From an uncultured Pelagibacteraceae bacterium (GTDB lineage Bacteria; Pseudomonadota; Alphaproteobacteria; Pelagibacterales; Pelagibacteraceae): DNA of 33,618 bases. The notes beneath the pieces were generated by a model, which made no database searches, was not told where the DNA came from, and saw only the letters and a program-made list of their open reading frames with translations. A program made the translations under genes and the position numbers. Below, one piece after another: positions 3,959 to 31,898 of the stretch. Within the stretch, counting starts at the first letter, position 1. Each line of letters begins with the position of its first letter. The stretch lies in NCBI GenBank assembly GCA_902573385.1, contig CACGJS010000006.1, positions 1-33,618 of the forward strand. The letters run 5' to 3'.

Positions 3959-3982
3959 CTAATTATAATTGAAATTTTTAAA

Positions 3983-4006
3983 GAAAGAGCCCCGAAGGGC
4001 TCTTTC
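3983..4006 (-). terminator. Intercistronic hairpin with cUUCGg loop between proX and proW
   Basis: Read on the minus strand this is GAAAGAGCCC-TTCG-GGGCTCTTTC: ten uninterrupted base pairs closed by a C-UUCG-G tetraloop, one of the most stable RNA loops known. It lies 25 bases past the proX stop. The downstream tract is TTTAAAAATTTC, with only three uridines directly after the stem, so termination is probably partial. Alternatively it acts as a 3' stabiliser of the proX message. Either role would give more binding protein than permease. Confidence 0.8.
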
Positions 4007-4030
4007 GAAATATTTGTTTAATTTATTGGA

Positions 4031-13131: not shown

Positions 13132-14220
13132 ATGTCAAAAAACAAACAATTTGTAAGATTTGATAATGTAGATAAAAGCTACGATGGAAAAATCTTAGTA
13201 GTTAAAGGATTAGACTTAGATATTGAAGAAGGTGAGTTTGTAACAATGTTAGGACCTTCAGGTTCTGGTAAGACAACTTGCTTGATGATGTTAGCAGGCT
13301 TTGAAACACCTACTCATGGAGAAATTTACTTAGATAATAAAGTTATCTCAAATATTCCTCCGCACAAAAGAGGAATTGGTATGGTTTTTCAAAATTATGC
13401 ATTATTTCCACACATGACAGTATATGAAAATTTAGCTTTTCCATTGAGAGTTAGAAAAATTCCAAAAGACGAAGCAGATAAGAAAGTTGATAAAGCCTTA
13501 TCAATGGTTTCTCTACAAGGTTTTGAAGCAAGAATGCCAATGCAATTATCTGGAGGCCAACAGCAAAGGGTTGCAGTAGCAAGATCACTTGTGTTTGATC
13601 CAAAACTTGTATTGATGGATGAACCTTTAGGTGCCCTAGACAAAAATTTAAGAGAGAGTATGCAATACGAAATTAAACATATACATGAAAGCATTGGTGT
13701 AACAGTTGTCTATGTAACACATGATCAAACGGAAGCTTTGACAATGTCAAACAGAATTGCTGTATTTAATGATGGAAAAGTTCAACAACTTTCAAGTCCA
13801 GACGAACTATATGAAAGACCAGTTAATTCGTTTGTGGCAGAGTTTATTGGAGAAAACAATACATTTGTTGGAACAGTAACTGATGTTTCGGGAAATACAT
13901 GTAAAGTTAAATTAAATAGTGGAGCTGAAATTTTAGCGAATCCTATTTCTGTAAAAGCTAAGGGTGATAAAACCACTGTATCTTTAAGACCAGAAAGAGC
14001 TTTAATTAATCCAAAAGATAAAATGGATAATAACTACAAGGGGAAAATTAAAGAAGTGATCTATCATGGTGATCACACTAGATTAAGAATGGACATGTTA
14101 GGTAATGAACAATTTATTTTAAAAATCCCAAATAGTTCATCAAATCTAGAGATTAAAACTGGAAATGATATTAATGTAGGCTGGAACGCTAATGATAGTA
14201 GAGCTTTAGACCCTAAATAA
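13132..14220 (+). CDS. potA: Spermidine/putrescine-type ABC transporter ATPase (PotA)
   Basis: Cytoplasmic ATPase of 362 residues. Walker A is GPSGSGKT (41-48), the Q-loop is in VFQNYALFPH, the signature is LSGGQQQR (139-146) and Walker B is LVLMDEP (159-165). A C-terminal regulatory TOBE domain spans about 280-355, which puts it in the PotA/FbpC/UgpC group. Its neighbours are a PotD-like binding protein and two permeases. The Pot label reflects the family; actual substrates of such systems include polyamines, GABA-like compounds and other small cations. Confidence 0.93.
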   Translation: MSKNKQFVRFDNVDKSYDGKILVVKGLDLDIEEGEFVTMLGPSGSGKTTCLMMLAGFETPTHGEIYLDNKVISNIPPHKRGIGMVFQNYALFPHMTVYENLAFPLRVRKIPKDEADKKVDKALSMVSLQGFEARMPMQLSGGQQQRVAVARSLVFDPKLVLMDEPLGALDKNLRESMQYEIKHIHESIGVTVVYVTHDQTEALTMSNRIAVFNDGKVQQLSSPDELYERPVNSFVAEFIGENNTFVGTVTDVSGNTCKVKLNSGAEILANPISVKAKGDKTTVSLRPERALINPKDKMDNNYKGKIKEVIYHGDHTRLRMDMLGNEQFILKIPNSSSNLEIKTGNDINVGWNANDSRALDPK

Positions 14221-14337
14221 AAGATAAGATATCAACCTTATATTTATTATATTTTATAAAGACAAATAGCGCCGAATCAGCTGTTGACTCATCATTGTGA
14301 TATTGTTTTACTTTCTTTTTTAAAAAATAACGTTAAC

Positions 14338-14342
14338 GGAGG
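14338..14342 (+). promoter_or_regulatory. Strong ribosome binding site of the PotD-like gene
   Basis: GGAGG stands four bases before the ATG at 14347, within a 126-base gap after potA. An extended -10-like sequence (TGATATTGT, 14298-14306) occurs upstream without a clear -35 at normal spacing. Separate high-level expression of the binding protein is therefore possible but not proven. Confidence 0.6.
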
Positions 14343-14346
14343 ATAA

Positions 14347-15468
14347 ATGAAAAAATTAAGTAAATTATTACTTGCTCTATCTTTTGTACTTTCTATTACA
14401 ACTTCAGCATTTGCAGTTACTGTAGTGTCATGGGGTGGTGCTTACACAGAAAGTCAAAAATTAGGGTATGGTGATCCTACTGCAAAGAAATTAGGTATAC
14501 CTGTTGATTGGGTAGACTACACAGGTGGATTATCTGAAATTAAAGCTCAAAAAGAAGCTGGAAAAATTACTTGGGACATCATTGATGTGTACGCAAAAGA
14601 CACTATCATTGGCTGTGACGAAGGTATTTTTGTTGAATTCGATTTCGATAAAGACTTTGCACCAGCTCCAGATGGAACACCAGCAAGTGAAGATTTTTTT
14701 ACTAGCATGCCTTCAAAGTGTGCAGTTGGAAACATTCTTTACTCTTGGAACTTTGCTTATAACAAAGACAATTTAAAAAAAGCTCCTAAAACAGCTAGAG
14801 ACTTTTTTAATACTAAAAAGTTTCCTGGTAAGAGAGCACTTTATAAAGGAGCAATGTCTAACATAGAACTTGCTACTGTTGGTGCATTAAAAGTTAAACC
14901 AGGTAAAGGTAATGGTAAAGTTTGGGACGCTCTTGAAAAAGATGGTGGAGTAGACAAAGCTATTGCTGCTATTAAAAAACTTTGCCAAGATCCAAAAGGT
15001 GGATGCGTATTCTGGAATGCTGGAGCTCAGCCACCAGAACTATTAGCTAATGGTGAAGTTGTAATGGCTACTGGTTGGAATGGTAGATTCTTTAACGCGC
15101 AAATGGAAGGAACTCCAATTGTACAAGTATGGGATGGTCAAATTTTAGACTATGAATACTTTGCAATGGTTAAAGGTGGACCTAACGATGCAAACGGTAA
15201 AGCTTTGAAAGTTCTTAGAGAAATGACAAGTTCTGAAGGTTTAGCAGGAAGCGCTAAGTATATTGCTTACGCTCCTTGGAGAAAATCTTCAATAGCTGTT
15301 ATGGAAGCTGGAGAGCCTTGGTTTAAAGATGGTAAGACTAACATGGTACCACATATGCCAACAGCTCCTGCTAACACTAAAAACTATATGCTTATGAATC
15401 CTAATTTTTGGGCCGACAACCAAGATGAGATCGGTGAAAAATGGGAAGCTATGAAAGCTGGTCTATAA
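14347..15468 (+). CDS. potD: Spermidine/putrescine-type periplasmic substrate-binding protein (PotD-like)
   Basis: A 373-residue extracellular solute-binding protein. The signal peptide runs to SAFA, then VTVVSWGGAYTES, the usual first strand of PotD/PotF and related proteins. The C-terminal lobe contains TGWNGRFFNAQ and the hinge region is normal. Tryptophans and acidic residues (WDIIDVY, CDEGIFVEFDFD) could form a binding site for an amine, but the ligand cannot be fixed from sequence. A strong Shine-Dalgarno and a terminator hairpin directly after the gene point to expression above the permeases. Confidence 0.9.
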   Translation: MKKLSKLLLALSFVLSITTSAFAVTVVSWGGAYTESQKLGYGDPTAKKLGIPVDWVDYTGGLSEIKAQKEAGKITWDIIDVYAKDTIIGCDEGIFVEFDFDKDFAPAPDGTPASEDFFTSMPSKCAVGNILYSWNFAYNKDNLKKAPKTARDFFNTKKFPGKRALYKGAMSNIELATVGALKVKPGKGNGKVWDALEKDGGVDKAIAAIKKLCQDPKGGCVFWNAGAQPPELLANGEVVMATGWNGRFFNAQMEGTPIVQVWDGQILDYEYFAMVKGGPNDANGKALKVLREMTSSEGLAGSAKYIAYAPWRKSSIAVMEAGEPWFKDGKTNMVPHMPTAPANTKNYMLMNPNFWADNQDEIGEKWEAMKAGL

Positions 15469-15499
15469 TTAGTTTATAGATTAGACTTTTATTTTATTT

Positions 15500-15530
15500 A
15501 AAGGGCGGTTAATATATAGCCGCCCTTTTT
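15500..15530 (+). terminator. Rho-independent terminator hairpin between the PotD-like gene and potB
   Basis: AAAGGGCGG (15500-15508) pairs with CCGCCCTTT (15520-15528) across an 11-base A/T loop and runs into a T-tract ending at 15531. It is the clearest intrinsic terminator in the window. The start codon of potB is only four bases beyond, so permease expression must depend on read-through. Confidence 0.85.
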
Positions 15531-15534
15531 TATT

Positions 15535-16782
15535 ATGAGCAATGAACAAATATTATCATCGGACGGAGTACCTTTAGAGGTTAGTTTAAAAAAAGCTGAA
15601 AGAAGAAATAAGATAAGAGCAGTGCTTCTTGTTGCTCCATTATTTCTATTTGTTTTAATTATTTACGTTTTTCCAATAGGTGACATGTTATTTAGAAGTG
15701 TTGATGATCGAATGATTACTAAAATGCTTCCTAAAACTTTTAAAGCGATGGAACAATGGGATGGTAAGGAATTACCTGAAGAGCCAGTTTATGGTGCGCT
15801 TTATGAGGACTTGTCATATTTAAAAAAAACTAAAACTTATGGAAAAATTATAGCTAGATTAAATTATGAAAAATCTGGATTTAGTAGTTTAATTAAAAAA
15901 ACAGTTAGAAAAATAAGTAAATTTGAAGAAGGAAATTACAAAGAACAATTTATTAAAGTACACAAGAGGTGGGGACAATTAGATTACTTAATTGCTTTAA
16001 AAAATACAGCACCTAAATGGTCTTATGCTAAATACTTAAAAGGACTTGATTTAAAATTTGATCAAGATCGAAATATAATCCAAGTACCAGAAGATAGAAG
16101 AATTCATAAAATTTTGTGGATAAGAACACTTAATGTAGCTTTTTGGGTTACAGTTTTTTGTTTTTGCTTAGCTTACCCGATATCTCACTTATTAGCTACA
16201 TTACCAATGAAGTATAGTAATTTGTTAATGATATGTGTGCTACTTCCTTTTTGGACATCTTTGTTAGTTAGAACTTCTAGTTGGATGGTTTTACTTCAAC
16301 AACAGGGACCGATAAACGATTTAATTGTTTGGATTGGGTTTGCTGCTGACGACAATAGACCTGAATTAATGTATAATGTAATTGGGACATTTGTAGCTAT
16401 GACGCAAATTTTATTACCTTTTATGGTATTGCCTCTTTATAGTGTTATGAAAACAATATCTCCAAGTTTAATGAGAGCTGGAAAATCTTTAGGTGGAACA
16501 CCATTTACTACATTTTTAAAGATTTATTTTCCATTAACAATTCCTGGCATTGGTGCTGGATGCCTATTGGTATTCATTTTATCAATTGGTTACTACATTA
16601 CGCCTGCATTAGTGGGTGGTGCTAGTGGATCTTTAATAAGTAACATAATTGCATATCATATGAAAAGTTCATTAGATTGGGCATTTGCTTCAGCATTAGG
16701 TACAATGTTATTGGTTGGTGTTTTAACAATTTACTGGATTTATAACAAATTAGTTGGGATAGATAATATTAAGTTAGGATAA
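15535..16782 (+). CDS. potB: Spermidine/putrescine-type ABC permease with a large inserted loop (PotB)
   Basis: Inner-membrane permease of 415 residues, much longer than the about 280 of E. coli PotB. TM1 is at about 28-49 and TM2 at about 200-222. Between them lie roughly 150 hydrophilic, mostly charged residues facing the periplasm (for example VHKRWGQLDYL). The rest is a standard permease core with EAA loop AGKSLGGTPFTTFLKIYFPL. From memory, similarly long PotB-like permeases exist in other alphaproteobacteria, so the insertion is probably a subfamily trait. The ATG at 15535 is the only normal start before TM1 and has no Shine-Dalgarno, since a terminator hairpin occupies the site. PotC follows after 3 bases. 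Confidence 0.9.
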   Translation: MSNEQILSSDGVPLEVSLKKAERRNKIRAVLLVAPLFLFVLIIYVFPIGDMLFRSVDDRMITKMLPKTFKAMEQWDGKELPEEPVYGALYEDLSYLKKTKTYGKIIARLNYEKSGFSSLIKKTVRKISKFEEGNYKEQFIKVHKRWGQLDYLIALKNTAPKWSYAKYLKGLDLKFDQDRNIIQVPEDRRIHKILWIRTLNVAFWVTVFCFCLAYPISHLLATLPMKYSNLLMICVLLPFWTSLLVRTSSWMVLLQQQGPINDLIVWIGFAADDNRPELMYNVIGTFVAMTQILLPFMVLPLYSVMKTISPSLMRAGKSLGGTPFTTFLKIYFPLTIPGIGAGCLLVFILSIGYYITPALVGGASGSLISNIIAYHMKSSLDWAFASALGTMLLVGVLTIYWIYNKLVGIDNIKLG

Positions 16783-16785
16783 ATT

Positions 16786-17640
16786 ATGTCATTACCAAAT
16801 TATACACCTTTAAACTATAAAATATGGCATTATACATACTTAACAATCTGTGGATTAGTATTCTTTTTTTTAATTGCTCCATTATTTGTGATACTGCCAT
16901 TATCATTTAACGCAGAACAATATATTCACTTTTCAGCAAAAATGTTAGCATTAGATCCCGAAGGTTTTTCTTTAAGATGGTATAAAGACATGATTTGGGG
17001 AACTAAAAATCCATGGGGTCTAGCTACAAAAAATAGTTTAATAATTGCTTTTTTTGCAACAATAGGATCAACAGTTCTTGGGACTGTTGCAGCACTTGGT
17101 TTAAGCAGTAGACATATGCCATATAAAGCTGCATTTATGGCTTTATTGATTTCACCAATGATTGTGCCATTAATTATTTCTGGAACTGCAATATTTTTCT
17201 TTATGGCAAAAGTAGGTTTAGCAGCAACGCATACTGGTATTGTTTTAGCTCATATTATTTTAGGAACTCCATTTGTTGTTATAACGGTTACAGCTACATT
17301 AAGTGGTTTTGATCATAGTGTGACTAGAGCCGCAGCAAGTTTAGGAAGTAATCCAGTAAATACTTTTATGAAAGTAACATTACCTCTGATTACTCCTGGA
17401 GTCATTTCTGGAGCATTATTTGCATTTGTGACTTCATTTGATGAAGTTATAGTAGTTTTATTTTTGGCAGGACTAGAAAATACAACTATACCTATTCAAA
17501 TGTGGGTAGGATTAAGAGAACAATTAAGTCCTACAATTCTAGCCGTAGCGACTTGTTTGATTATTATGTCAACTTTAATTCTAGTTAGTGCAGAACTTTT
17601 AAGACGAAGATCTGAAAGAATAAGAGGAATTAATAGATAA
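16786..17640 (+). CDS. potC: Spermidine/putrescine-type ABC permease (PotC)
   Basis: Second inner-membrane permease, 284 residues, with about six hydrophobic segments and the EAA loop AAASLGSNPVNTFMKVTLPL. The C terminus RRRSERIRG is basic and cytoplasmic. Length is normal for PotC. It follows potB by 3 bases and closes the operon; the next gene is convergent, 5 bases away. With PotA, PotD and PotB it forms a complete importer. Confidence 0.92.
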   Translation: MSLPNYTPLNYKIWHYTYLTICGLVFFFLIAPLFVILPLSFNAEQYIHFSAKMLALDPEGFSLRWYKDMIWGTKNPWGLATKNSLIIAFFATIGSTVLGTVAALGLSSRHMPYKAAFMALLISPMIVPLIISGTAIFFFMAKVGLAATHTGIVLAHIILGTPFVVITVTATLSGFDHSVTRAAASLGSNPVNTFMKVTLPLITPGVISGALFAFVTSFDEVIVVLFLAGLENTTIPIQMWVGLREQLSPTILAVATCLIIMSTLILVSAELLRRRSERIRGINR

Positions 17641-18893: not shown

Positions 18894-21116
18894 ATGACAA
18901 TTAAAAAAGTAGTAGTAATTGGTTCAGGAACAATGGGGAGTGGTATAGCAGCTCATTTATGTAATGCCAATATTCCAGTCACCTTACTTGATTTGAAAAC
19001 AGAAATTAGCAAACAGGCCAGAGAAAAAATCTATAAATCAAGACCACCTCTTTTATTGGATAAATCAAAAATAAATAATATTAAAGTTGGTAATATTTTA
19101 GATGACTTTAATACAGTAAAAGATGCCGATTGGGTGGTAGAAGCGGTCGTTGAAAGAATAGATATTAAGCACGATATTTACAATAAAATATTTAAAGAAA
19201 GAAAAAAAGGAGCAATTGTTTCCTCAAACACATCTTCAATACCAATCAAAATATTATCTGAAAAACTAACTTCTGAAGAAAAAAAAGATTTTTGTATTAC
19301 TCATTTTTTTAATCCTGTTAGATATATGGGCCTTCTAGAGATAGTTAAAAATGAAAATAATGATTTAGATAAAATTAATTCTTTAAAAAAATTTTGTGAA
19401 ATCGAATTAGGAAAAGGTGCAATTGTCTGCAATGATACTCCAGGATTTTTGGGAAATAGAATAGGTGTGTTTGCAATGCAAATTGCTATGACTGAAGCTT
19501 TTAAAATGAAACTTACTATTGAAGAAGCAGATTCAATTTTTGGAAGACCAATGGGAATTCCAAAAACAGGAGTGTTTGGTCTTTATGATTTGATTGGAAT
19601 AGACTTGATGGCTGATGTTTTAAAAAGTTTTATAAAAGAGCTACCAAAAAATGATCCTTTTCAGGAAGTTGCAAAAGAAACTTCTTTAGTAAAAAAATTA
19701 ATTGAAACTGGATATACAGGTCGAAAAGGTAAAGGAGGTTTTTATAGAATAAATAAAACTGGCTCCACAAAAGTTATGGAAGCAATTAACCTTGAGACTG
19801 GAAAATATTCAGCTAGTAAAAAAATTAATATTCTATCAGATAAAGTTGATCTTAAATCTTTAATCTCCAGAGATGATAAATTTGGTGAGTATGCTTGGTC
19901 GGTAATTTCTAAGATTATCAAATATGCTTCTTCTTTAGTACCCGCTATTACAAAAAATTTTAATGACATAGATGAAGCAATGCGATTAGGCTTTAACTGG
20001 ACAAAAGGACCTTTTGAAATGTTAGAAGAGATAGGCGTTGAAAATTTTTTTAATAAGATTGATGATTTTAAAGGAAATACTTTTTTAGAAAATTTATCTA
20101 AAACTAAAAATCAAGACTTCTATGGTTCAAGACAAAAATATACAGAAATTGAGACATTAGGAAAAGTTAAAAAGAAAGCATTGAGCGTTGATGGTAATAG
20201 TTCAGCACAGATATATAGATTTAATGATTACAATATTGTTGAATTTACAACTAAAGCTAATACTCTTGATTATGACTCAATGGATGCTTTAAAAAAAGCT
20301 ACTGATAAACCATTAATAATAATTAATGAAAGTATGCAATTTTCTGCTGGTGTAAATTTAACTTATACTATGGATTTTGCAGATAAGGGAGATATTAAAT
20401 CTATTGAAAAATTTATAAGATATTTTCAAGAAACATGTAAACACCTTAAATATTCAGATCATCCAGTTGTCTCAGCGCCTTCAGGCCTGACACTGGGGGG
20501 TGGTTTTGAGGTAATGGTTCAAAGTAATTTTGTAGCTTCACATACAAATATTGTAGTTGGCTTGGTGGAAACTATTGTTGGTTTAATTCCAGCAGGTGGC
20601 GGATGTAAAGAAATGTTAGCAAGATGGCTTGATACAGACGAAGCCAAAAAAGACCCTCATTATGCACCTCTTAAAGTGTTTGATATAATTGGCTATGGAA
20701 GAACTGCAACTTCTCCAATTGAAGCAGAGCCAATGAAATATTTAAAACCAGAAGATAAAAAAATAATGAATAGAAATAGTTTATTAGAAGTTTCTAGAAA
20801 AATTCTAGATAATAATAAAGCTTTTAAAGCTCCATCAGAGGCAAAATTTAATCTTCCAGGAAAAACAGTTGTTGAAGATATGAATAAAATCTTAGAAAAA
20901 CTATATAATGACAAGATTATTCTTGATCATGGTTTAGTAGTTGCTCAAGAGTTGGCATACGTTCTAAGCGGTGGAAATACTACAATTGACAAGACTTTGT
21001 CAGAAGATGATTTATTTAAATTAGAATTAGATGCTTTTATGAGATTAGTTGAAACTAAAAAAACTCAAGAAAGAATCAAATACACTTTATTAACCGGGAA
21101 ACCTTTAGTAAACTAA
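18894..21116 (+). CDS. fadN: FadN-type 3-hydroxyacyl-CoA dehydrogenase / enoyl-CoA hydratase fusion
   Basis: A 740-residue bifunctional beta-oxidation enzyme. The N terminus carries the NAD-binding 3-hydroxyacyl-CoA dehydrogenase domain (VVVIGSGTMGSGIAAHL, residues 7-23; catalytic His in CITHFFNP). The helical dehydrogenase C-terminal domains follow (CNDTPGFLGNRIG, about 180-300). A crotonase-fold enoyl-CoA hydratase domain forms the C-terminal part (about 440-700), with both catalytic Glu positions apparently kept in LTLGGGFEV and GLVETIVGL. This domain order is the reverse of E. coli FadB/FadJ and matches FadN of Bacillus and similar proteins in alphaproteobacteria. The stop overlaps the convergent MetX-like gene by four bases. 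Confidence 0.9.
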   Translation: MTIKKVVVIGSGTMGSGIAAHLCNANIPVTLLDLKTEISKQAREKIYKSRPPLLLDKSKINNIKVGNILDDFNTVKDADWVVEAVVERIDIKHDIYNKIFKERKKGAIVSSNTSSIPIKILSEKLTSEEKKDFCITHFFNPVRYMGLLEIVKNENNDLDKINSLKKFCEIELGKGAIVCNDTPGFLGNRIGVFAMQIAMTEAFKMKLTIEEADSIFGRPMGIPKTGVFGLYDLIGIDLMADVLKSFIKELPKNDPFQEVAKETSLVKKLIETGYTGRKGKGGFYRINKTGSTKVMEAINLETGKYSASKKINILSDKVDLKSLISRDDKFGEYAWSVISKIIKYASSLVPAITKNFNDIDEAMRLGFNWTKGPFEMLEEIGVENFFNKIDDFKGNTFLENLSKTKNQDFYGSRQKYTEIETLGKVKKKALSVDGNSSAQIYRFNDYNIVEFTTKANTLDYDSMDALKKATDKPLIIINESMQFSAGVNLTYTMDFADKGDIKSIEKFIRYFQETCKHLKYSDHPVVSAPSGLTLGGGFEVMVQSNFVASHTNIVVGLVETIVGLIPAGGGCKEMLARWLDTDEAKKDPHYAPLKVFDIIGYGRTATSPIEAEPMKYLKPEDKKIMNRNSLLEVSRKILDNNKAFKAPSEAKFNLPGKTVVEDMNKILEKLYNDKIILDHGLVVAQELAYVLSGGNTTIDKTLSEDDLFKLELDAFMRLVETKKTQERIKYTLLTGKPLVN

Positions 21117-22123
21117 TTTAATAGTTCTCTAATATTTTTGTCTAGTTTTTTTTCAAAATTTTTATCATTACCAGGGTTTGCTGCACAATGTCCATATGAT
21201 GAGTTAACAGGTCGCAAAGATACTCTTTTAATAAATTTTTTTTCATACATGTTATCTTCAGTTCTAAAATATAAATCTTGATTACATGGCATTAGAATTG
21301 TATTTGCTTTAATTGACTTTAGAGATTTAATATAGTTGCTTTTATATAGAGGGTTATTACTTATATCATTTAATTGCCAAGTTTTTATTTTACATAAAAG
21401 GTTATTAGCATCCCAATTTTTTGCATGATCATTAGCCCAGTCATCTAATAAACTTTTTACATTTTTATACCCAATTTTTTTATAAAGTTTTTCTCTATAA
21501 AAGTTTTGAGAAAAAGCCCATCCAGCATAAACACGACCAAAAGCTTTTAAACCTTCTTGAGGTTGCTTTTTATATTTACCTTTTTTCCAATTTTTATCTG
21601 CAGTCAAAGCAGCTTTTACACCCTCTAAAAATACATGATTATGTATTGAGGTTTTTGAAGAAGCACAAAAAGGTAAAATAGCTTTAACCATATCAGGATA
21701 TTGTGCTGCCCATTGATATGATTGACATCCAGCCATAGACCAGCCTGTTACTAAAGCAATTTTTTTTATTTTAAGTTTTTCAGTTATTAGTTTGTGTTGG
21801 CAATAAATATTATCCCATAGTGTTACTTCTGGGAATTTATAACCATGTTGCGATATAACAGTATTGCTTGGAGAAGAAGACAGACCATTACCAAACATAT
21901 TGATTGAAATGATAAAATATTTATTTGGATTTAAAGCTCTATTTTTTCCAATAAAACCCTCATTACGAATATGATTTCCAGTATAAAAAGTCGGAAGTAT
22001 AATTACATTTGAGGCATATTTATTTAATTTACCATAAGTTTGATAAATCAATTTAGCTGATTTTAGAGTTTTGCCTGATAAAAGTTTAACATTTCCTAAG
22101 TTAAACTCTTTATATTTTTTCAT
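21113..22123 (-). CDS. MetX-like alpha/beta hydrolase (homoserine O-acetyltransferase family)
   Basis: A 336-residue alpha/beta-hydrolase-fold protein of the homoserine acetyltransferase family. The probable triad is S129 (TGWSMAGCQSYQ), D283 (MPCNQDLYF) and H312 (SSYGHCAANPG). The family stretch FPEVTLWDNI is present. The nucleophile elbow GWSMAG differs from the GGSMGG of true MetX, and the gene is not near other methionine genes, so a direct role in methionine synthesis is doubtful. It may acylate or hydrolyse an intermediate of the cluster. It is the last gene of a five-gene minus operon; its start codon shares one base with the stop of the GS-like gene (TAATG), which indicates coupling. 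Confidence 0.75.
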   Translation of the reverse strand: MKKYKEFNLGNVKLLSGKTLKSAKLIYQTYGKLNKYASNVIILPTFYTGNHIRNEGFIGKNRALNPNKYFIISINMFGNGLSSSPSNTVISQHGYKFPEVTLWDNIYCQHKLITEKLKIKKIALVTGWSMAGCQSYQWAAQYPDMVKAILPFCASSKTSIHNHVFLEGVKAALTADKNWKKGKYKKQPQEGLKAFGRVYAGWAFSQNFYREKLYKKIGYKNVKSLLDDWANDHAKNWDANNLLCKIKTWQLNDISNNPLYKSNYIKSLKSIKANTILMPCNQDLYFRTEDNMYEKKFIKRVSLRPVNSSYGHCAANPGNDKNFEKKLDKNIRELLN

Positions 22124-23544
22124 TAATAAAGTCTAAGATATTCTTTTACTTCCCAATCGGTAACTGCTTGGTGATACCTTTCCCATTCGTCATTTTTATA
22201 ATTAAGCAAAGATTTCTTCATAACAGGACCTAAAACTTCATCAGATAATTTATCATTTTTAAGAGCTTCAATAGCCATTAGTAAGTTTCTTGGAAGCCTT
22301 TTAATTCCAAGCTTTTTAAAGTCATTCTCTGACATATTATATAGGTCTTGATCAGTTGGTTTTCCTGGATGTATTTTTTTTTCTATTCCTTTAACAGCAG
22401 CTGAAATTGTCATTGAAAGAGCTAAATATACATTCATAGTCATGTCTGCGGCTCTATTTTCAATACAATATCTATTTTGCGGTAATCGAAATTGTGCAGA
22501 TCTATTATTATGACCATAGGTAATATTTGTCGGGGCCCATGTAACTGTCCCACCTTCAAAACCACCAACTCTTGGAACTAACCCATTGTATGAGTTTACT
22601 GTTGAACAAGTAATTGAAGTTAAAGCTTCAGCATGTTTCATTAATCCGCCAACTGCATATAAAGATTCTTTAGACCATTTATTTCCAGCATCAAAAATAT
22701 TTTTTCCATTTCTATCAACCATCGAGAAATTAATATGAGCTCCAGACCTCCAATCTCCTATAGTTGGTTTTGGCATAAAAGTAATAAACATATTATGTTT
22801 CTTAGCTATCTCTTTTAAGAGAATTCTAAGAAAAACTAATCTATCAGCCATTTCTAAAAGATTTGTATAATGAAAATCTAATTCAAATTGAGAATAAGCT
22901 CCTTCCGCAACAACATCATGTAACTGCCATCCTAAACCATTTAATATATCTATTAATTCTTTAAAAAAATGCATTGAGTCTAATGAGTGCTCGACATCAT
23001 AACCAAAAGCTTGACGTCTAGGTCTAATTCCTTTTATAGGATCATTATCTATCGCTTTTATCGGTTGACCATTTTCATCATACTTCATAGCAATAAATTC
23101 TGGTTCGATGCCAGCCATACCCTTATAACCACTATTTTGTGCTTTTTGCATAGCACGTTTTAATGCTTGTCTTGGGCATACATTGTAAGGTTTATCTTCC
23201 CAAAAAAGATCTGCAAAAATTATTGCTGTTGTATCATCCCATGGACAAATATAAACTGAATCTAAGTCTGGCAACATTACTTGGTCCGAGTCGGCTGGAG
23301 TAAGCTCAGGTACATAAGAAATTGAATGTACTGCAAATTGAGGGCCTTTTCCTAAACACAAGGGTTCAAAATCACTCATAGGCACAGGTTTAGTTTTTGG
23401 AATACCATGGAGATCAATCCAGCTTGATAAAACATATTTTACACCAGCATTTTTTAGTCTTTTATGAACAGCAGGGATTTTTTTTCTATTACGTTCAACA
23501 GCATCTTTAAAGTTTTCATAATAGATTTTTTGATTTTTCCTCAT
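22123..23544 (-). CDS. Glutamine synthetase-family gamma-glutamyl amide ligase (GMAS/GlnT-like)
   Basis: A 473-residue ATP-dependent ligase of the glutamine synthetase fold. The N-terminal beta-grasp part has VKYVLSSWIDLHGIPKTK. The catalytic part has GIEPEF, NGLGWQLHDVVAEGAYSQFELDF, FMPKPTIGDWRSGAHIN, HNNRSAQFRLP and NRAADMTMNVYLAL. The overall wording resembles gamma-glutamylmethylamide synthetase and related amine-glutamylating enzymes more than housekeeping GlnA; the adenylylation-type C terminus of GlnA is absent. Such enzymes join glutamate to an amine (methylamine, ethanolamine, polyamine or aniline in known cases). The amine here is unknown. Co-operonic Rieske, glyoxalase and EutQ-like genes suggest catabolism of an amine rather than ammonia assimilation. 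It has a good Shine-Dalgarno (AAGGAGA). Confidence 0.82.
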   Translation of the reverse strand: MRKNQKIYYENFKDAVERNRKKIPAVHKRLKNAGVKYVLSSWIDLHGIPKTKPVPMSDFEPLCLGKGPQFAVHSISYVPELTPADSDQVMLPDLDSVYICPWDDTTAIIFADLFWEDKPYNVCPRQALKRAMQKAQNSGYKGMAGIEPEFIAMKYDENGQPIKAIDNDPIKGIRPRRQAFGYDVEHSLDSMHFFKELIDILNGLGWQLHDVVAEGAYSQFELDFHYTNLLEMADRLVFLRILLKEIAKKHNMFITFMPKPTIGDWRSGAHINFSMVDRNGKNIFDAGNKWSKESLYAVGGLMKHAEALTSITCSTVNSYNGLVPRVGGFEGGTVTWAPTNITYGHNNRSAQFRLPQNRYCIENRAADMTMNVYLALSMTISAAVKGIEKKIHPGKPTDQDLYNMSENDFKKLGIKRLPRNLLMAIEALKNDKLSDEVLGPVMKKSLLNYKNDEWERYHQAVTDWEVKEYLRLY

Positions 23545-23548
23545 ATTT

Positions 23549-23555
23549 TCTCCTT
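23549..23555 (-). promoter_or_regulatory. Ribosome binding site of the GS-like gene
   Basis: On the minus strand AAGGAGA lies four bases before the ATG at 23544, in the 16-base gap after the cupin gene. It supports this start codon. Confidence 0.6.
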
Positions 23556-23560
23556 ATTTT

Positions 23561-23956
23561 TTATTGTGGCATATCCTCTGGATCTATTCCAGGAACAAAA
23601 GTTATTCCTGCTTTTTGCTTCCAGTCATGAGGATAAGCCGCATAAAATATTACACATTTTTCATCACATTCGTAGGCAATATGATTATCTTTTGGAATGT
23701 ATAGCACATCTCCGGGATTACAAATATAAGACTCTTCATTGCAAGTGAGACGGAAAGTTCCTTCCATACAATAGATGATTTCATCACATGTTAAATCCCA
23801 AGGTACAGAAACTTTATTTAAAAAATTTAATCCTCCACACATAGTGTCACTTACTTTGCTAGTAACAAAAGGTTTAATATAGCTTTTACCTGGTTCTAAT
23901 GTGTGTAATCTATTCTCAATATCTTTAAATTTATATAATTGTGGTTTTTTTGACAT
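23561..23956 (-). CDS. EutQ-like cupin protein
   Basis: A 131-residue single cupin. The stretch CDEIIYCMEGTFRL corresponds to the first cupin motif, and PGDVLYIPKDNHIAYEC to the second with H92. The motif-1 histidines normally used for metal binding are missing. The wording (DEI-Y-EGT, IPK-NHI, YPHDW) resembles, from memory, EutQ of ethanolamine utilisation and its relatives. EutQ has been linked to acetate kinase activity, but small homologues outside eut operons have no proven role. It sits 18 bases after gloA and 16 bases before the GS-like gene in one operon. This Eut means ethanolamine, unlike the ectoine EutA at 10653. Confidence 0.75.
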   Translation of the reverse strand: MSKKPQLYKFKDIENRLHTLEPGKSYIKPFVTSKVSDTMCGGLNFLNKVSVPWDLTCDEIIYCMEGTFRLTCNEESYICNPGDVLYIPKDNHIAYECDEKCVIFYAAYPHDWKQKAGITFVPGIDPEDMPQ

Positions 23957-23974
23957 TTTTAATACCTTTCTGTT

Positions 23975-24394
23975 TTATACTTTTATTGGTTCATTTAACT
24001 CTACTTTATATCCATCTGGATCTTCACAAAATGCGATTACTCTAGTTCCATGTTTCATAGGACCAGGTTTACGTGTAATATTTATTCCAAGTTTAGCCAA
24101 GTCTTCACAAGCTTTATAGACATCAGGTGTTTCAATACATATATGTCCCCATCCATTACCTTTATCGTAATCATTTTTTTGATCCCAGTTATGTGTAAGT
24201 TCTAGGCAAGGAGATTCAGTTTCAAGACCATAACCAATAAAAGCATTAGTAAATTTACCGTCAGGGTAATCTGTTTTTCTTAGAATTTTCATTCCTAAAG
24301 TTTTGCAGTAAAAATTAAAGGATGCATCTAAATCTTTAACTCTTATCATAGTATGTGCAAGTCTGTATCCATCAAGATTAATTTTTTTAGACAT
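23975..24394 (-). CDS. gloA: Glyoxalase I (lactoylglutathione lyase)
   Basis: A 139-residue glyoxalase I that turns the hemithioacetal of a 2-oxoaldehyde and glutathione into S-2-hydroxyacylglutathione. All four metal ligands are at the expected places: H14 (AHTMIRVKDLD), E65 (LELTHNWD), H84 (GWGHICIE) and E132 (DGYKVELNE). The motif order is that of bacterial GloA. It overlaps the upstream Rieske oxygenase gene by eight bases, so its production is coupled to that enzyme. This suggests that a 2-oxoaldehyde such as methylglyoxal is a product or by-product of the pathway; that is inference. Confidence 0.9.
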   Translation of the reverse strand: MSKKINLDGYRLAHTMIRVKDLDASFNFYCKTLGMKILRKTDYPDGKFTNAFIGYGLETESPCLELTHNWDQKNDYDKGNGWGHICIETPDVYKACEDLAKLGINITRKPGPMKHGTRVIAFCEDPDGYKVELNEPIKV

Positions 24395-25523
24395 TTTTTT
24401 TCCTTTTTATTATTTTTTTTGATTTCATTGTTGCGTTTATTATAAGTTTTTGAAAAGTTTGTACTCCTTTTTCCCAAACTGGAGACAAAAGCCCTCCTTC
24501 TTCTGATGCAGGTGATGATCTACCTTCTTGTAATCTTTCACACATTTCATGATCTTCTTTATGAACATTCCACCAAATATTTTTAACCATTTTAACCTCT
24601 TCTTCACCCATTTCTTTACCATCAGTAGTATATATTATTCTTTTTTGTGAAGTTACACCTGGACTTATTGGTATATTTAAATAAACCCCAACCTGGTTAG
24701 GAAAATAAGTTCCTATTATAAAATTTGGAAAAAGAGATAAGTAACGAGAAGTTACAGATAAAGCAGAACTATTTTTAGTATCTTCTTCTTTAACATCGAC
24801 TCCACTTCCATAGCATATACCATCTACAACAGTATAATGATCTTTTAAAGGTTGGTTTGTTGTTGTTTTATGGACGAACTGAACATGATAGGGCTCTATA
24901 AAATTTTCAATAAGAAATTTCCAATTAGTATTTATTTTTCCAAAATCTAATGTTGTTGCATATTTTAATTTTGTTAAATCAATATCATTAAATTTTTTAA
25001 TAAGTGGTTTTGCGTAATCTTTAAATTTTTTTGCCTTTCCATTATAATTAATAAAAATCCAATCATGCCAAATATAAATTCTAATTGGCTTTAAACCATG
25101 ATCTAAAAAATTAAAACCTTTAGGTTGATGTTGATTTGTTCCACCTATATGAGGTGCGGCTTTTAAATTTCCGTCTAGATCATAACTCCAGGAATGATAA
25201 GGGCAGCGAATAATTTTTCCTACATTTTTTTTTTCATCAACTAATTTTAAACATCTGTGACTGCAAACATTATGAAAGGCTTTAATTTCGTTATTATTAT
25301 TTTTAACAAGTAATATTGGTTTATTTGCAATAAATAAAGGAGATACATCACCAATTTTTTTAAGTTCATGGACAAAACCTACAAATAACCAACCTTCAGA
25401 TAATACAGTATTACATTCCTTTTTCCAAAAATCTTCATCTGTATAAGATTTAGCTGGCAATCCAAATATAGTATTTAGATTTTTGGGTTTTTTAATCTTA
25501 AATAAATTTTTCTTTTTTGACAT
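24387..25523 (-). CDS. Rieske non-heme iron oxygenase, catalytic subunit (betaine/choline/carnitine-type)
   Basis: A 378-residue oxygenase alpha subunit. The Rieske 2Fe-2S ligands are C87-x-H89 and C107-x2-H110 (CPYHSW). The mononuclear iron motif is ENFIEPYHVQFVH with H213 and H218. The bridging position, Asp in ring-hydroxylating dioxygenases, is Glu (E210) here, as in choline monooxygenase and carnitine oxygenase CntA. This points to C-N bond chemistry on a quaternary ammonium compound rather than ring hydroxylation. No reductase or ferredoxin partner is in the window, so electrons must come from a protein encoded elsewhere. It is the first gene of the five-gene minus operon. The substrate is unknown. 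Confidence 0.85.
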   Translation of the reverse strand: MSKKKNLFKIKKPKNLNTIFGLPAKSYTDEDFWKKECNTVLSEGWLFVGFVHELKKIGDVSPLFIANKPILLVKNNNNEIKAFHNVCSHRCLKLVDEKKNVGKIIRCPYHSWSYDLDGNLKAAPHIGGTNQHQPKGFNFLDHGLKPIRIYIWHDWIFINYNGKAKKFKDYAKPLIKKFNDIDLTKLKYATTLDFGKINTNWKFLIENFIEPYHVQFVHKTTTNQPLKDHYTVVDGICYGSGVDVKEEDTKNSSALSVTSRYLSLFPNFIIGTYFPNQVGVYLNIPISPGVTSQKRIIYTTDGKEMGEEEVKMVKNIWWNVHKEDHEMCERLQEGRSSPASEEGGLLSPVWEKGVQTFQKLIINATMKSKKIIKRKKNV

Positions 25524-25616
25524 ATTCTACATAGCTTAAAAACAAATTATTTATATTGAAAACCCTATTTTAGAATATTAAGATTTACAATAGAATAGTT
25601 TTAAAGAGCAAATGAT

Positions 25617-26978
25617 ATGAGCAACCATAATTTTACTAATCAAAATTTTAGAGGTTACAATCAAGCAATTGTACCAGAAATAGACGAGGGTTTAGCTCGA
25701 ACAGATTCACAAACACCTTGTGGAGAATTTTTGAGACGTTATTGGCATCCTGTAGCGTTAACTTCGGAGGTCAAGGAAACACCAAAAGAAATTCGTATTT
25801 TAGGTGAGGATTTAGTAATTTTCAAAACTACCAAAGGAAACATAGGTTTGGTTCATAAAGCTTGTCCTCACAGAAGAGCATCTATGGTATATGGAAAAAC
25901 TGAAGATAGAGGAATTAGATGTTGTTATCATGGTTGGTTATTTTCTCCTAATGGAGAAATTCTAGAAACACCGGGTGAAGACCCAAGTTCAAAGCAAGCT
26001 GCAAAATTAAGAGAAACATTTAAACTTGGAGCTTATCCTGTGATTGAATTCAATGGTTTAGTTTTTTCATATTTAGGACCAATGAATAAAATACCAGAAT
26101 TTCCACATTATGATGCATTTGATATACCTGGAAATATATCAAGCCCATATCGTATAGATTATAATTGTAATTGGATTCAGGTACTTGATGCAATTATGGA
26201 CCCTGTTCACACATCATTTCTACACGGACAAAGTTCTGGAATACAATTTTCAAAAGGTTTTGCTGAAATTGGAGAAATAGATTTTTATGAAAGAGGCACA
26301 CAATACTTAGGGTGCAATACTAGAAGAATAAATGACAATGTTTGGGTTCGCGTAAATGAATTAATTTTACCTAATTTTACTCAAGCTGGAGCAGCATTTG
26401 CAGCGGATGGAACTAAAAGTAGGTATTTTGGAAGAAGCTCTTTTACAAGGTGGGTAGTACCAGTTGATGATAATCATTGCACTGCTTTAGCTTGGGCAAA
26501 TTTTGGTAAAAGAGGTGATCCATTAGAATATAATAATCAAGAAGGGTTTGAAAGAATTGAAGCTGGTGAAATTGCAAATAGAACTTTTGAAGAAAAACAA
26601 AAAAGTCCTGGAGATGCAGAAGCAGTGGAGGGAATGGGTTCAATTAGTAGTCATAAAGGAGAACATTTAATGCCTACCGATCAAGGTATTATGATTTATA
26701 GAAGAAGAATTAGAAAATTAATTAAAAGTTTAGAAGAAGGAAAAGAACCCCCTCAACCACAAAAAATAAAAGGCGAAGTTGTAAGAACTAATGGACAAGA
26801 TACAGTTTTAAAAGTTCCAAAAAGAAATACAAATGATAAAGAATTTATTAAAATGATTTGCTCTTCAGTAATGAAGATGCAGTTTGATTTAGAAGAAATG
26901 TCACTTAAAGATCGTGACAATCATATTATAAAAAATTTATCAGAAATGGAAAAGAGTGGAAATTTTGACAGAGAATAA
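25617..26978 (+). CDS. Rieske non-heme iron oxygenase, phthalate-dioxygenase-type alpha subunit
   Basis: A 453-residue oxygenase with the layout of the phthalate 4,5-dioxygenase group. The N-terminal CGEFLRRYWHPVA is typical of that group. The Rieske ligands are C83-x-H85 and C102-x2-H105 (CCYHGW). The mononuclear site is LDAIMDPVHTSFLH with H198, H203 and the bridging D195. The C-terminal part is helical and charged. Family members act on aromatic acids, vanillate-type ethers or other ring compounds, and the substrate here is open. It is divergent from the other Rieske gene (93-base gap), so two oxygenases of different classes start back to back. Its 3' end overlaps the 2-hydroxyacid dehydrogenase gene by 23 bases. 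No reductase is nearby. Confidence 0.87.
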   Translation: MSNHNFTNQNFRGYNQAIVPEIDEGLARTDSQTPCGEFLRRYWHPVALTSEVKETPKEIRILGEDLVIFKTTKGNIGLVHKACPHRRASMVYGKTEDRGIRCCYHGWLFSPNGEILETPGEDPSSKQAAKLRETFKLGAYPVIEFNGLVFSYLGPMNKIPEFPHYDAFDIPGNISSPYRIDYNCNWIQVLDAIMDPVHTSFLHGQSSGIQFSKGFAEIGEIDFYERGTQYLGCNTRRINDNVWVRVNELILPNFTQAGAAFAADGTKSRYFGRSSFTRWVVPVDDNHCTALAWANFGKRGDPLEYNNQEGFERIEAGEIANRTFEEKQKSPGDAEAVEGMGSISSHKGEHLMPTDQGIMIYRRRIRKLIKSLEEGKEPPQPQKIKGEVVRTNGQDTVLKVPKRNTNDKEFIKMICSSVMKMQFDLEEMSLKDRDNHIIKNLSEMEKSGNFDRE

Positions 26979-27993
26979 AAAAATTAAAATTCATATTAAA
27001 AATAATCATGGACGCGCAGGTACTTTCCCTTGTGATTTAGAAGGAGAAAAAAATTTTACTATAACTCAAAATCATCTTGAAAAAGTCTTAGAAAATGAAC
27101 CAGAGATAAAAAAAAAAGTAGAGTTTTTTATTGATTGGGACGAAGATAACTTTAATTCATCTATGACTAATTCAGAAATTTTACTTACTTATGATTTTCC
27201 AACAACAAATCTTAAAAAAATAGCACCACATTTAAAATGGATACATTGTACAGCAGCAGGAGTTGAACACTTATCACCTTTTAACTGGGCATTTGATGGA
27301 TTAATTATAACCAATAGTAGTGGAGTTCACTCTAAAAAAGCTGGAGAATATGGATTGATGAGTGTTTTGATGCTTCAAAACCATATGCCAAAAATTATTA
27401 CAAATCAAAAAAATAAAAAATTTGTGTCTTTGTTTAGCAACCCAATAAAGGATAGAAATATTGTCCTTGTTGGGACAGGTTCTTTAGGATCTTCAATGGC
27501 TAAACTATTAAAGCCACTTGGTGCTAATGTCATAGGTGTAAATAAAAAAGGAAATTCTGTAGAAGGTTGTTCTAAAATTATAACAATTGAAAAATTAGAT
27601 ACTGTTCTTCCTGAAGCAGATATTTTGTATTTGGCACTACCTGAAACTCCAGAAACTAAAAATTTAATTGATAGAAAAAGATTAGATTTATTAAAATCAT
27701 CTTGTGGAATTGTAAACATTGGTCGTCAATCAGTATTGGATTATGAAGTATTATGTGAAAAGCTTAATAAAGGTGAAATAGCAGGTGCAATACTTGATGT
27801 GTTTACTCAAGAACCTATTGAAAATAATTCCAAATTTTGGCATACACCTAATCTCGTAATTACACCGCACGTATCATCGGACGACAATGGTAACTATGTA
27901 AAAATGACACTTGATTTATTTGTAAAAAATTTAAAACTTTTTATAGAAAAAAAAGAGTTAATCAATCAAATTGATAAAGATTTGGGCTATTAG
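26956..27993 (+). CDS. D-2-hydroxyacid dehydrogenase (glyoxylate/hydroxypyruvate reductase-like)
   Basis: A 345-residue dehydrogenase with the NAD(P)-binding motif VGTGSLGSSMA (173-178 for the glycines) and the catalytic Arg257 (NIGRQS), Glu286 (TQEPI) and His305 (TPHVSS). After the second Rossmann strand the sequence is GVNKKGNS, with basic and no acidic residues, which favours NADPH. The start is a GTG at 26956, or a TTG at 26965; no ATG is available before about residue 70, which would remove the first domain. The 23-base overlap with the Rieske gene indicates translational coupling. It probably reduces a 2-oxoacid made by the pathway, though oxidation is possible. Confidence 0.87.
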   Translation: MEILTENKKIKIHIKNNHGRAGTFPCDLEGEKNFTITQNHLEKVLENEPEIKKKVEFFIDWDEDNFNSSMTNSEILLTYDFPTTNLKKIAPHLKWIHCTAAGVEHLSPFNWAFDGLIITNSSGVHSKKAGEYGLMSVLMLQNHMPKIITNQKNKKFVSLFSNPIKDRNIVLVGTGSLGSSMAKLLKPLGANVIGVNKKGNSVEGCSKIITIEKLDTVLPEADILYLALPETPETKNLIDRKRLDLLKSSCGIVNIGRQSVLDYEVLCEKLNKGEIAGAILDVFTQEPIENNSKFWHTPNLVITPHVSSDDNGNYVKMTLDLFVKNLKLFIEKKELINQIDKDLGY

Positions 27994-29478: not shown

Positions 29479-30447
29479 ATGAAAAAAAAAGAAAGAAATA
29501 AAAATCCAATTGAACCAGTAATGGGAACTAAAGTTCCTAGATATGCAGGTCCAAGTACATTTGCAAGACTACCCGAATTAAGAGACGTTAAGGATTGCGA
29601 TGTAGCTATTGTTGGTATTCCTTTTGACGCTGGAACAAGTTATAGACCTGGTGCTAGATTTGGTCCTCACAGTATTAGACAAGCTTCTAGACAATTAAGA
29701 ACTAATTACCATCCTAATTATGATGTTGAGCCATTCAAGGTTCAACAGGTTGCAGATGCAGGAGATATAACTTGCAACCCATTCAATATTAATGAGGCAA
29801 TTAAGCAGGTAGAAGTAGGAGCTTTAGAACTATTAAATAAAGTTGGTGGAATAATAAGTCTGGGAGGAGATCACACAATAGCTTTTCCATTACTAAGGGC
29901 AATAAACAAAATTAATAATGGTCCTGTAGCACTAGTTCATTTTGATGCTCATTTAGACACTTGGGACACATATTTTGGATCACCCTATACTCATGGAACT
30001 CCTTTTAGAAGAGCTAGAGAAGAAAATTTATTTTTAGATGACGCCTCTATGCATGTTGGAATTAGAGGGCCACTTTATAGTCGTGATGATCTTAAAAATG
30101 ATGCTGATTTTGGATTTAAAATAATTCATTGTGATGAATTTCAAACACAAGGAACAGAAAAAATAGCTGAAAGAATTAGAAAAAGAGTAGGTAATAATCC
30201 TTTATATTTATCAATTGATATAGATGTTTTGGATCCTGCTTTTGCACCAGGAACGGGGACACCCGAAATAGCAGGTATGACAACTAGAGAAATGGTAAAT
30301 GTTTTAAGAGGTTTATCTGGTTTAAACCTTATATCTGCTGATGTAGTTGAAGTTGCACCGGCTTATGATCATGCTGAATTAACTTCTTTAGCCGCTGCGA
30401 CAATAGTTTATGAATTAACCAATTTATTTGCAAAAGTAAAAAGATAA
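29479..30447 (+). CDS. speB: Agmatinase family ureohydrolase (SpeB)
   Basis: A 322-residue binuclear manganese ureohydrolase. The metal ligands are H132 (GGDHT), D156, H158 and D160 (HFDAHLD), and D247 and D249 (SIDIDVLDPAFAPGTGTPE). The N-terminal IPFDAGTSYRPGARFGP is typical of agmatinase. It hydrolyses agmatine to putrescine and urea; guanidinobutyrase and related enzymes share this pattern and are possible. No urease or ornithine cyclodeaminase gene is present to indicate the fate of the products. An aldehyde dehydrogenase follows after 14 bases in the same direction, which fits further oxidation of an amine-derived aldehyde. Confidence 0.88.
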   Translation: MKKKERNKNPIEPVMGTKVPRYAGPSTFARLPELRDVKDCDVAIVGIPFDAGTSYRPGARFGPHSIRQASRQLRTNYHPNYDVEPFKVQQVADAGDITCNPFNINEAIKQVEVGALELLNKVGGIISLGGDHTIAFPLLRAINKINNGPVALVHFDAHLDTWDTYFGSPYTHGTPFRRAREENLFLDDASMHVGIRGPLYSRDDLKNDADFGFKIIHCDEFQTQGTEKIAERIRKRVGNNPLYLSIDIDVLDPAFAPGTGTPEIAGMTTREMVNVLRGLSGLNLISADVVEVAPAYDHAELTSLAAATIVYELTNLFAKVKR

Positions 30448-30461
30448 GATAATTTCACACC

Positions 30462-31898
30462 ATGATAGACAATAAAAAATTTTATATAAATGGCCAATGG
30501 GTTTCTCCAAAAAAACCAAATGATTTAAAAGTAATAGATCCTTCAACAGAAAAAGAGTGTGCTATTATTTCTATAGGAGGAGTTGAAGATATAAATGATG
30601 CTGTTAGTGCAGCTACTAAAGCTTTTGAAACATGGGCATTCTCTACTAAAGAAGAAAGATTAAAATATTTAGAAGCTCTTTATGAGATATATAAAAAAAG
30701 ATGGGCCGACATGGCTAAAGCTATATCTTTAGAAATGGGTGCACCAATTGATTTTTCAACTCAATTACAAGCAGGAACTGGCGCTAGTCACATCAAATCT
30801 TATATAAAAGTTTTAAAAGAATATACTTTTGAAAAAATATTAGGAGAGCACGCCCCTAATAATAATATTTTGCATGAACCAAAAGGAGTTTGTGCGCTAA
30901 TTACACCATGGAATTGGCCAATGAATCAGACTTGTTTAAAAGTAATTCCTGCTATTGCTGCTGGTTGTACAATGATTCTTAAACCTTCTGAAATAGCGCC
31001 ATTATCATCAATGATTTTAGCTGAAATGATTAATGATATTAAGTTACCAAAAGGAGTATTTAACTTAGTTAATGGAGATGGAGCAGTAACAGGCAATGCA
31101 TTAACAAGTCATCCAGATGTAAATATGATTTCATTTACAGGATCAACTAGAGCAGGTGCTTTAATATCTCAAAATGCAGCTAATGACTTTAAGAGAGTAA
31201 GTTTAGAACTAGGTGGTAAAGGAGCAAACATTATATTTAAAGATGCTGATGCTGAGGCTGTTGAAAGAGGAGCTTTAAGATGCTTTAGAAACACAGGACA
31301 ATCTTGCAACGCACCAACAAGAATGCTAGTCGAAAAATCAATTTACAATGAAACTGTTGAAAGAGTTAAAAAATTTGCTAATTCAATGAAAGTAGATGTA
31401 GCAACTAAAAAAGGTGATCATATTGGTCCAGTAGTGTCAAAAACTCAATTTGATAAAATTCAAAGTTTAATTCAAATTGGTATTGATGAAGGAGCAAAAT
31501 TAGTTGCGGGCGGAACTGGTAAACCAGATGGTTTAGATAAAGGTTATTTTGTTAAACCAACAGCTTTTGCAGATGTTAATAATCAAATGCAAATTGCAAG
31601 AACTGAAATATTTGGGCCAGTTTTATCAATCATACCTTTTGAAACTGAAGAAGAAGCCATAGCTATTGCTAACGATACTCCCTATGGATTATTAAACTTT
31701 ATTCAAACACAAGATCAAGTAAAAGCAAATAGAGTCGCTAGAAAATTACGTTCAGGGATGGTTGATATAAATGGTGCAGGTTTAGCACCTGATGCTCCAT
31801 TTGGTGGGTACAAACATTCAGGTATAGGACGTGAAGCTGGTAAATTAGGCTTGGAAGAATATTTAGAAGTCAAAGCAGTAAGCGGTTGGAATAATTAA
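30462..31898 (+). CDS. NAD(P)-dependent aldehyde dehydrogenase (copy B)
   Basis: A 478-residue aldehyde dehydrogenase closely related to copy A at 7331. The catalytic residues are N151 (PWNWP), E249 (LELGGKG) and C282 (NTGQSCNAPTR). It follows agmatinase by 14 bases, so a 4-aminobutanal or 4-guanidinobutanal type substrate is plausible, but the sequence does not prove it. The two copies differ in a stretch near residues 100-137 and in the C-terminal loop before GGF/GGY, which may reflect different substrates. Its 3' end overlaps the convergent M20 gene by four bases. Confidence 0.92.
   Translation: MIDNKKFYINGQWVSPKKPNDLKVIDPSTEKECAIISIGGVEDINDAVSAATKAFETWAFSTKEERLKYLEALYEIYKKRWADMAKAISLEMGAPIDFSTQLQAGTGASHIKSYIKVLKEYTFEKILGEHAPNNNILHEPKGVCALITPWNWPMNQTCLKVIPAIAAGCTMILKPSEIAPLSSMILAEMINDIKLPKGVFNLVNGDGAVTGNALTSHPDVNMISFTGSTRAGALISQNAANDFKRVSLELGGKGANIIFKDADAEAVERGALRCFRNTGQSCNAPTRMLVEKSIYNETVERVKKFANSMKVDVATKKGDHIGPVVSKTQFDKIQSLIQIGIDEGAKLVAGGTGKPDGLDKGYFVKPTAFADVNNQMQIARTEIFGPVLSIIPFETEEEAIAIANDTPYGLLNFIQTQDQVKANRVARKLRSGMVDINGAGLAPDAPFGGYKHSGIGREAGKLGLEEYLEVKAVSGWNN

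Follow-up and report, generated by a model that had tools for sequence, protein, structure and literature searches.

Our analysis of a divergent seven-gene block in a SAR11 genome points to a module for the catabolism of a marine N-methylated betaine. Such betaines are charged nitrogen compounds that plankton produce, and the leading candidate among them is homarine (N-methylpicolinate). We give an even chance to this reading as the best explanation of the module as a whole. What is new here is the altered acid site of the GS-like protein encoded in the block, together with an optional pair of genes for a second Rieske oxygenase and a dehydrogenase. If the reading is true, it would place the breakdown of N-methyl betaines in the ocean's most abundant bacteria, link the use of a plankton nitrogen compound to methylamine assimilation and make the module a marker of those SAR11 and Roseobacter strains that are able to use this common compound. 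It would also provide a GS-fold enzyme for which the acid that is converted to an amide or acyl-phosphate may not be glutamate.

Gene layout and conservation of the module

The window (the whole stretch of DNA that was analysed, 33,618 nucleotides) is contig 6 of a SAR11 MAG of 847,581 bases that is 61% complete and whose close relatives carry the name Pelagibacteraceae. All seven open reading frames listed in an earlier, sequence-only reading of this DNA were recovered at the same positions. As that reading had described, five minus-strand genes overlap or lie less than 20 bases apart, with measured gaps of -8 to 18 bases (-1 between metX and GS, 16 between GS and cupin, 18 between cupin and gloA, and -8 between gloA and the first Rieske gene, ROa). 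These genes face a Rieske-dehydrogenase pair, the members of which overlap (gap of -23 bases), across the 93 bases that separate ROa from the divergent second Rieske gene, ROb. Judging from this geometry, the intergenic region (25524-25616, not assigned to a strand) presumably holds both promoters; a promoter scan of these 93 bases gave about as many sites as were found in shuffled sequences. No reductase gene was found for ROa or ROb inside the seven-gene block. A PADLOC scan returned zero matches. The genes of the block look functional and under selection, as their products retain the metal-binding and catalytic residues, which show little or no variation among the 45-108 homologues compared for each family. 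The earlier family calls hold as well, with two refinements, namely assignment of the 'MetX-like' hydrolase to the PRK07581 subfamily and of the second Rieske oxygenase as LigXa-like. A dense amine/osmolyte island surrounds the module (window positions 1908-5050, 5180-6304, 13132-17640 and 29479-31898), containing genes for an OpuABC-type betaine transporter, a gamma-butyrobetaine hydroxylase-like protein, a PotABCD-type transporter, an agmatinase-like protein and an aldehyde dehydrogenase, of which those before 21113 were named by eye from the window.

A scan of genome contigs revealed the GS-like protein in 80 loci. Ordered gene maps showed the exact order hadh-ROb-<>ROa-gloA-cupin-GS-metX in 34 loci and the five genes ROa-gloA-cupin-GS-metX alone in 32, although some of the latter cover too little sequence to tell whether the ROb-dehydrogenase pair is there. 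With such numbers of loci carrying the exact seven or the five genes, the arrangement is not a matter of chance. The search for conserved neighbourhoods that had been proposed with the sequence-only reading thus speaks for genes that work together as a unit and are conserved jointly in marine bacteria. In L017, metX appears to be split into two ORFs, and in L032 ROa does; frameshifts or assembly errors may be the cause.

The module is carried by 11 of the 147 sampled SAR11 genomes (~7%), many of which are incomplete, and by 18 of 54 Ruegeria genomes (a third). It is also found in other alpha- and gammaproteobacteria, usually with an Lrp/AsnC regulator; a gene for such a regulator lies near the module in 39 loci, outside SAR11. 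In four Ruegeria loci (L160, L161, L162 and L166), ROa, gloA, cupin, GS, metX and the regulator are all on one strand, with a BCCT gene interposed in this order in L160. Within SAR11, the module occupies at least two distinct neighbourhoods, either hbd/thl/pot, as in the window, or sdr-opu-bbox. As its occurrence is patchy and its neighbours change, the module has probably been passed horizontally among marine bacteria. One could also consider general detoxification, or unrelated genes that are held together by genome streamlining, given that GloA and cupins occur in many contexts. However, the module remains assembled in Alpha- as well as Gammaproteobacteria, with its genes ~50-90% identical, large genomes included, and we find this explanation hardly credible.

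The Rieske oxygenases and accompanying enzymes

ROa (24387-25523, minus strand; PF00355 and PF00848) is the candidate first oxidation enzyme of the module. It is related to CntA, GbcA and Stc2 and, by both profile and fold, is closest to such quaternary-ammonium (group V-like) Rieske oxygenases rather than to ring hydroxylases. A single-sequence search returned ring hydroxylases and CntA mixed, while the family profile had CntA as its best PDB match (151 bits, over the full length). In a fold search with the predicted structure (pLDDT of 70, low over 210-260), CntA occupied ranks 1-9 and 11-14, 3n0q rank 10 and Stc2 ranks 15-18. The bridging glutamate E210 and the Fe ligands are invariant in 70 of 70 sequences, whereas F208 is Phe in 67 and Tyr in 3; the corresponding residues of CntA are the bridging E205 and the pi-cation residue Y203 (PMC7948474). 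ROa thus resembles CntA and the group V enzymes GbcA and Stc2 in its best profile and fold matches, in the bridging Glu and in the aromatic residue at the Y203 position. It differs from these enzymes in three respects. The Cys pair found in some group V Rieske enzymes (PMC10952381) is absent from the ROa family as a Cys-X-X-Cys motif, with P211 and V214 being invariant there. The best NCBIfam model, GbcA, scored 137 bits, below its cut-off of 670. Finally, a gene for a CntB/GbcB-type reductase (PF00175) gave no match in the near-complete SAR11 module genomes G035 and G074, while control genomes were matched.

ROb (25617-26978, plus strand; PF00355 and PF19301) has Rieske ligands, Fe ligands and a bridging Asp that are invariant in 48 of 48 sequences. 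The adjoining gene (26956-27993, plus strand), which has a GTG start and a 23-base overlap with ROb, encodes a member of the D-2-hydroxyacid dehydrogenase family (PF02826, 1.1e-43), with catalytic R257, E286 and H305 being found in 45 of 45 sequences. Of 32 sampled loci, 10 carry the dehydrogenase gene, and these are also the 10 that carry ROb; ROb was not seen in the 32 five-gene loci. In many SAR11 loci, the slot beside ROa lacks the pair, and in L023 and L039 this slot is occupied by other genes. L039 is the five-gene locus of the SAR11 isolate HTCC9565. Conversely, the pair is found with GS in L092, L095, L135 and L043, where no ROa was seen. Given the 34 loci with seven genes versus the 32 with five, the ROb-dehydrogenase pair should be considered a separable accessory.

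Three further proteins of the block are likewise conserved at their active sites. GloA (23975-24394, minus strand) is a glyoxalase I (TIGR00068, 152 bits, cut-off of 120) in which all four metal ligands, H14, E65, H84 and E132, are invariant in 90 of 90 sequences. The EutQ-like single-domain cupin (23561-23956, minus strand; PF06249, 58.9 bits, cut-off of 21) presents E59 and H92 in 89 of 89. The product of metX (21113-22123, minus strand) is an alpha/beta hydrolase that, like the PRK07581/MetX-like hydrolases (PDB 5e4y and 5d6o), exceeds the subfamily cut-off (NF005757, 427 bits against 332) and has a Ser-Asp-His triad (S129, D283 and H312, kept in 92-93 of 93). Homoserine O-acetyltransferase MetX itself was ruled out, as TIGR01392 scored 154 against 500 bits and the MetX equivalog models fell below their thresholds.

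The GS-like ligase and its altered acid site

Based on its sequence, the GS-like protein (22123-23544, minus strand; Gln-synt_C, 9e-87), a GS-fold ligase, is neither GlnA nor a typical gamma-glutamyl ligase. Its acid site carries the substitutions D50A, N264W, G265R and R321G (Salmonella numbering) in 108 of 108 homologues; among the references, R321 is kept in 22 of 22 and position 265 is Gly in 20 and Ala in 2. In GlnA, Asp50 binds and deprotonates ammonium. An ammonia-assimilating GlnA was ruled out by the loss of this residue in all homologues, by the shortfall against the GlnA model TIGR00653 (302 against 429 bits) and by a separate clade. In the maximum-likelihood tree, where long branches limit the deep order, the module proteins form one clade outside GlnA, GMAS, PuuA and DcaQ. 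A tree of the kind that the sequence-only reading had called for therefore sets the protein apart not only from GlnA but also from GMAS, PuuA and the anilide synthetase DcaQ. In MtGS, Gly246 and Arg303 are listed among the Mg/glutamate-binding residues (PMC10799026). Mapped via alignment, these positions are Arg and Gly in 108 of 108 GS-like proteins, and an ATP-contacting Arg of MtGS (Arg336 by the same mapping) is Cys, while the metal ligands are retained, as are the remaining arginines that bind phosphate. With these residues replaced, the GS-like protein no longer seems able to hold glutamate. Nonetheless, we only infer a loss of glutamate use, as an Arg inserted near the altered site (R325, in 97 of 108 homologues) could compensate. 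The predicted structure, for which the input rows comprised genome loci and the window, with plasmid locus L097 being left out, has a modest pLDDT of 66 and is weak at the altered loops; we thus build no pocket claim on it.

These residues bear directly on the earlier proposal that an amine is loaded with glutamate. In such a route, similar in style to aniline or alkylamine degradation, the GS-like protein would couple L-glutamate to an amine, the Rieske enzymes would oxidize the product and the hydrolase would remove the glutamyl group. Loss of Asp50 agrees with other amine ligases, including the GoaS organic-amine enzymes, which nonetheless keep their glutamate-binding residues (PMC11335346). 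The best PDB match by sequence is, moreover, a glutamate--methylamine ligase, and the module protein shares with GMAS (TIGR03105) the GS fold, the D50 to A change and a W-A-P flap motif. It differs from GMAS in R321G, G265R and N264W, in an identity of ~32%, in scoring below the TIGR03105 cut-off (357 against 469.6) and in forming a separate clade. Of the features of a gamma-glutamyl amine ligase, the loss of Asp50 is thus present, while the glutamate-site residues Arg321, which GMAS, PuuA, DcaQ and GlnA all retain, and Gly265 are both replaced in 108 of 108 homologues. As the module also lacks a PuuD-type hydrolase, we consider gamma-glutamylation improbable. Of the earlier pathway reading, one unit with Rieske chemistry, probably acting on a nitrogen compound, stands, while the glutamate loading of an amine finds no support. 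Its 2-oxoaldehyde and 2-oxoacid steps may still apply. The likeness to aniline degradation that had been noted also fails. Aniline and dichloroaniline systems (AtdA1/TdnQ/DcaQ, NpaA1) do combine a GS-like protein with a Rieske oxygenase, yet DcaQ keeps the glutamate-site Arg, and the alpha/beta dioxygenase, reductase and type 1 amidotransferase of pDCA-1 are all absent from the block. An aniline-type pathway was rejected on this comparison. We tentatively propose instead, with less than even confidence, a new GS-fold ligase family that would act on a non-glutamate acid in an N-methyl betaine pathway, in which ROb, together with the dehydrogenase, would offer a second way of oxidizing the substrate.

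Neighbouring genes, substrate and proposed pathway

Several neighbours of the module are transporter genes. In Ruegeria L160 and L167, GS and metX are separated by a BCCT transporter gene (PF02028, 496 and 492 bits), NMT1-type ABC transporter/SBP genes are found in eight loci, with one being embedded in the operon in Leisingera, and an amino-acid type SBP gene lies between ROa and gloA in L136. Nine loci, representing three or more lineages, have GMAS and mgsABC, which serve methylamine assimilation, close to the module, with GMAS being defined as TIGR03105 over its cut-off (Ruegeria L160, L162 and L166; L079/L081/L089; L137/L138; and L086). In the three Ruegeria loci, these genes are upstream of the module on the same strand, with GMAS directly upstream of ROa in L166. 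The nine loci should be considered against ~40 non-SAR11 loci with long flanks, most of which lack GMAS-mgs. By a rough estimate, which takes ~20 kb of a 4.5 Mb genome and assumes that the linkage arose independently in at least three lineages, the probability of a chance association is below 1 in 1000. In the flanks of SAR11 module loci, mgs genes were not seen, and the module shows little association with mgsC within SAR11 (present in 2 of 2 complete genomes with the module versus 21 of 51). In L137 (10787-11524) and L138 (10629-11360), a class I amidotransferase-like gene, identified by eye, adjoins GS-metX, with no ROa nearby.

The BCCT and NMT1 transporters, together with the GMAS-mgs linkage, point to a charged N-methyl substrate and to methylamine as a product, and we consider an N-methyl betaine with methylamine release the probable substrate. 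For homarine itself, we stop slightly short of an even chance. Homarine fits, as it is removed quickly by R. pomeroyi (PMC12817926) and as Mgd takes part in its catabolism (PMC13390433). Among 397 family members searched, none matched a megaplasmid gene of R. pomeroyi DSS-3. The ROa signature, the BCCT gene and the methylamine linkage do not single out homarine, and another single-methyl or quaternary substrate, such as trigonelline, proline betaine or a methylated osmolyte, would leave the logic of the module unchanged. However, linkage to GMAS-mgs is more in line with a substrate that yields one methylamine, and the known trigonelline and stachydrine routes are not reported to rely on these genes, making such a substrate unlikely. 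Methylated guanidino or arginine compounds were also considered, in which case arginase-family, ADI/DDAH-like and 5-guanidino-2-oxopentanoate decarboxylase neighbours would mark the true pathway. Arginase-family genes are near the module in six sampled loci, a guanidino-type island adjoins GS-metX in plasmid CP081100 and an agmatinase-like gene lies at window positions 29479-30447. Yet, most module loci lack such neighbours and the SAR11 module is found in more than one neighbourhood, so that we judge guanidino compounds quite improbable. The plasmid region (L098, 1209-21416) carries ADI/DDAH-like, two arginase-family, GntB-like desaturase and 5-guanidino-2-oxopentanoate decarboxylase genes.

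Ferrer-Gonzalez et al. reportedly described in 2026 a homarine operon, homABCDER, of five genes and a regulator in SAR11, SAR116 and Rhodobacterales. Our module may be this operon, as such a content fits ROa-gloA-cupin-GS-metX-AsnC; the SAR11 window differs in that its block has no AsnC gene and adds ROb and the dehydrogenase. Should the module prove identical to the 2026 operon (Nat Microbiol 11:1531, doi 10.1038/s41564-026-02313-7), the remaining news would be the altered acid site and the accessory pair in SAR11.

For the N-methyl betaine pathway, we infer the individual reaction steps as follows, with the roles of the cupin, the hydrolase and the GS-like protein being guesses. ROa would oxygenate the carbon beside the charged nitrogen, after which opening of the ring or of a C-N bond would give a hydroxy- or oxo-aldehyde. 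GloA, with glutathione, would isomerize a 2-oxoaldehyde-type product and the hydrolase would then release the acid, the two enzymes together yielding a hydroxy acid that the dehydrogenase, where present, would oxidize. The GS-like enzyme may use ATP to convert an acid other than glutamate into an amide or acyl-phosphate. Methylamine or N-methylglutamate would carry off the nitrogen together with the methyl group and feed GMAS/Mgs/Mgd, and ROb and the dehydrogenase would extend the route in some strains. As regards Mgs, some of the SAR11 genomes encode an MgsC-type paralogue, ~50% identical to the query, in most cases in addition to the usual copy of 85-87% identity (G000:C35:1269-2522; also G035, G074, G026, G043, G078, G127, G131 and G137).
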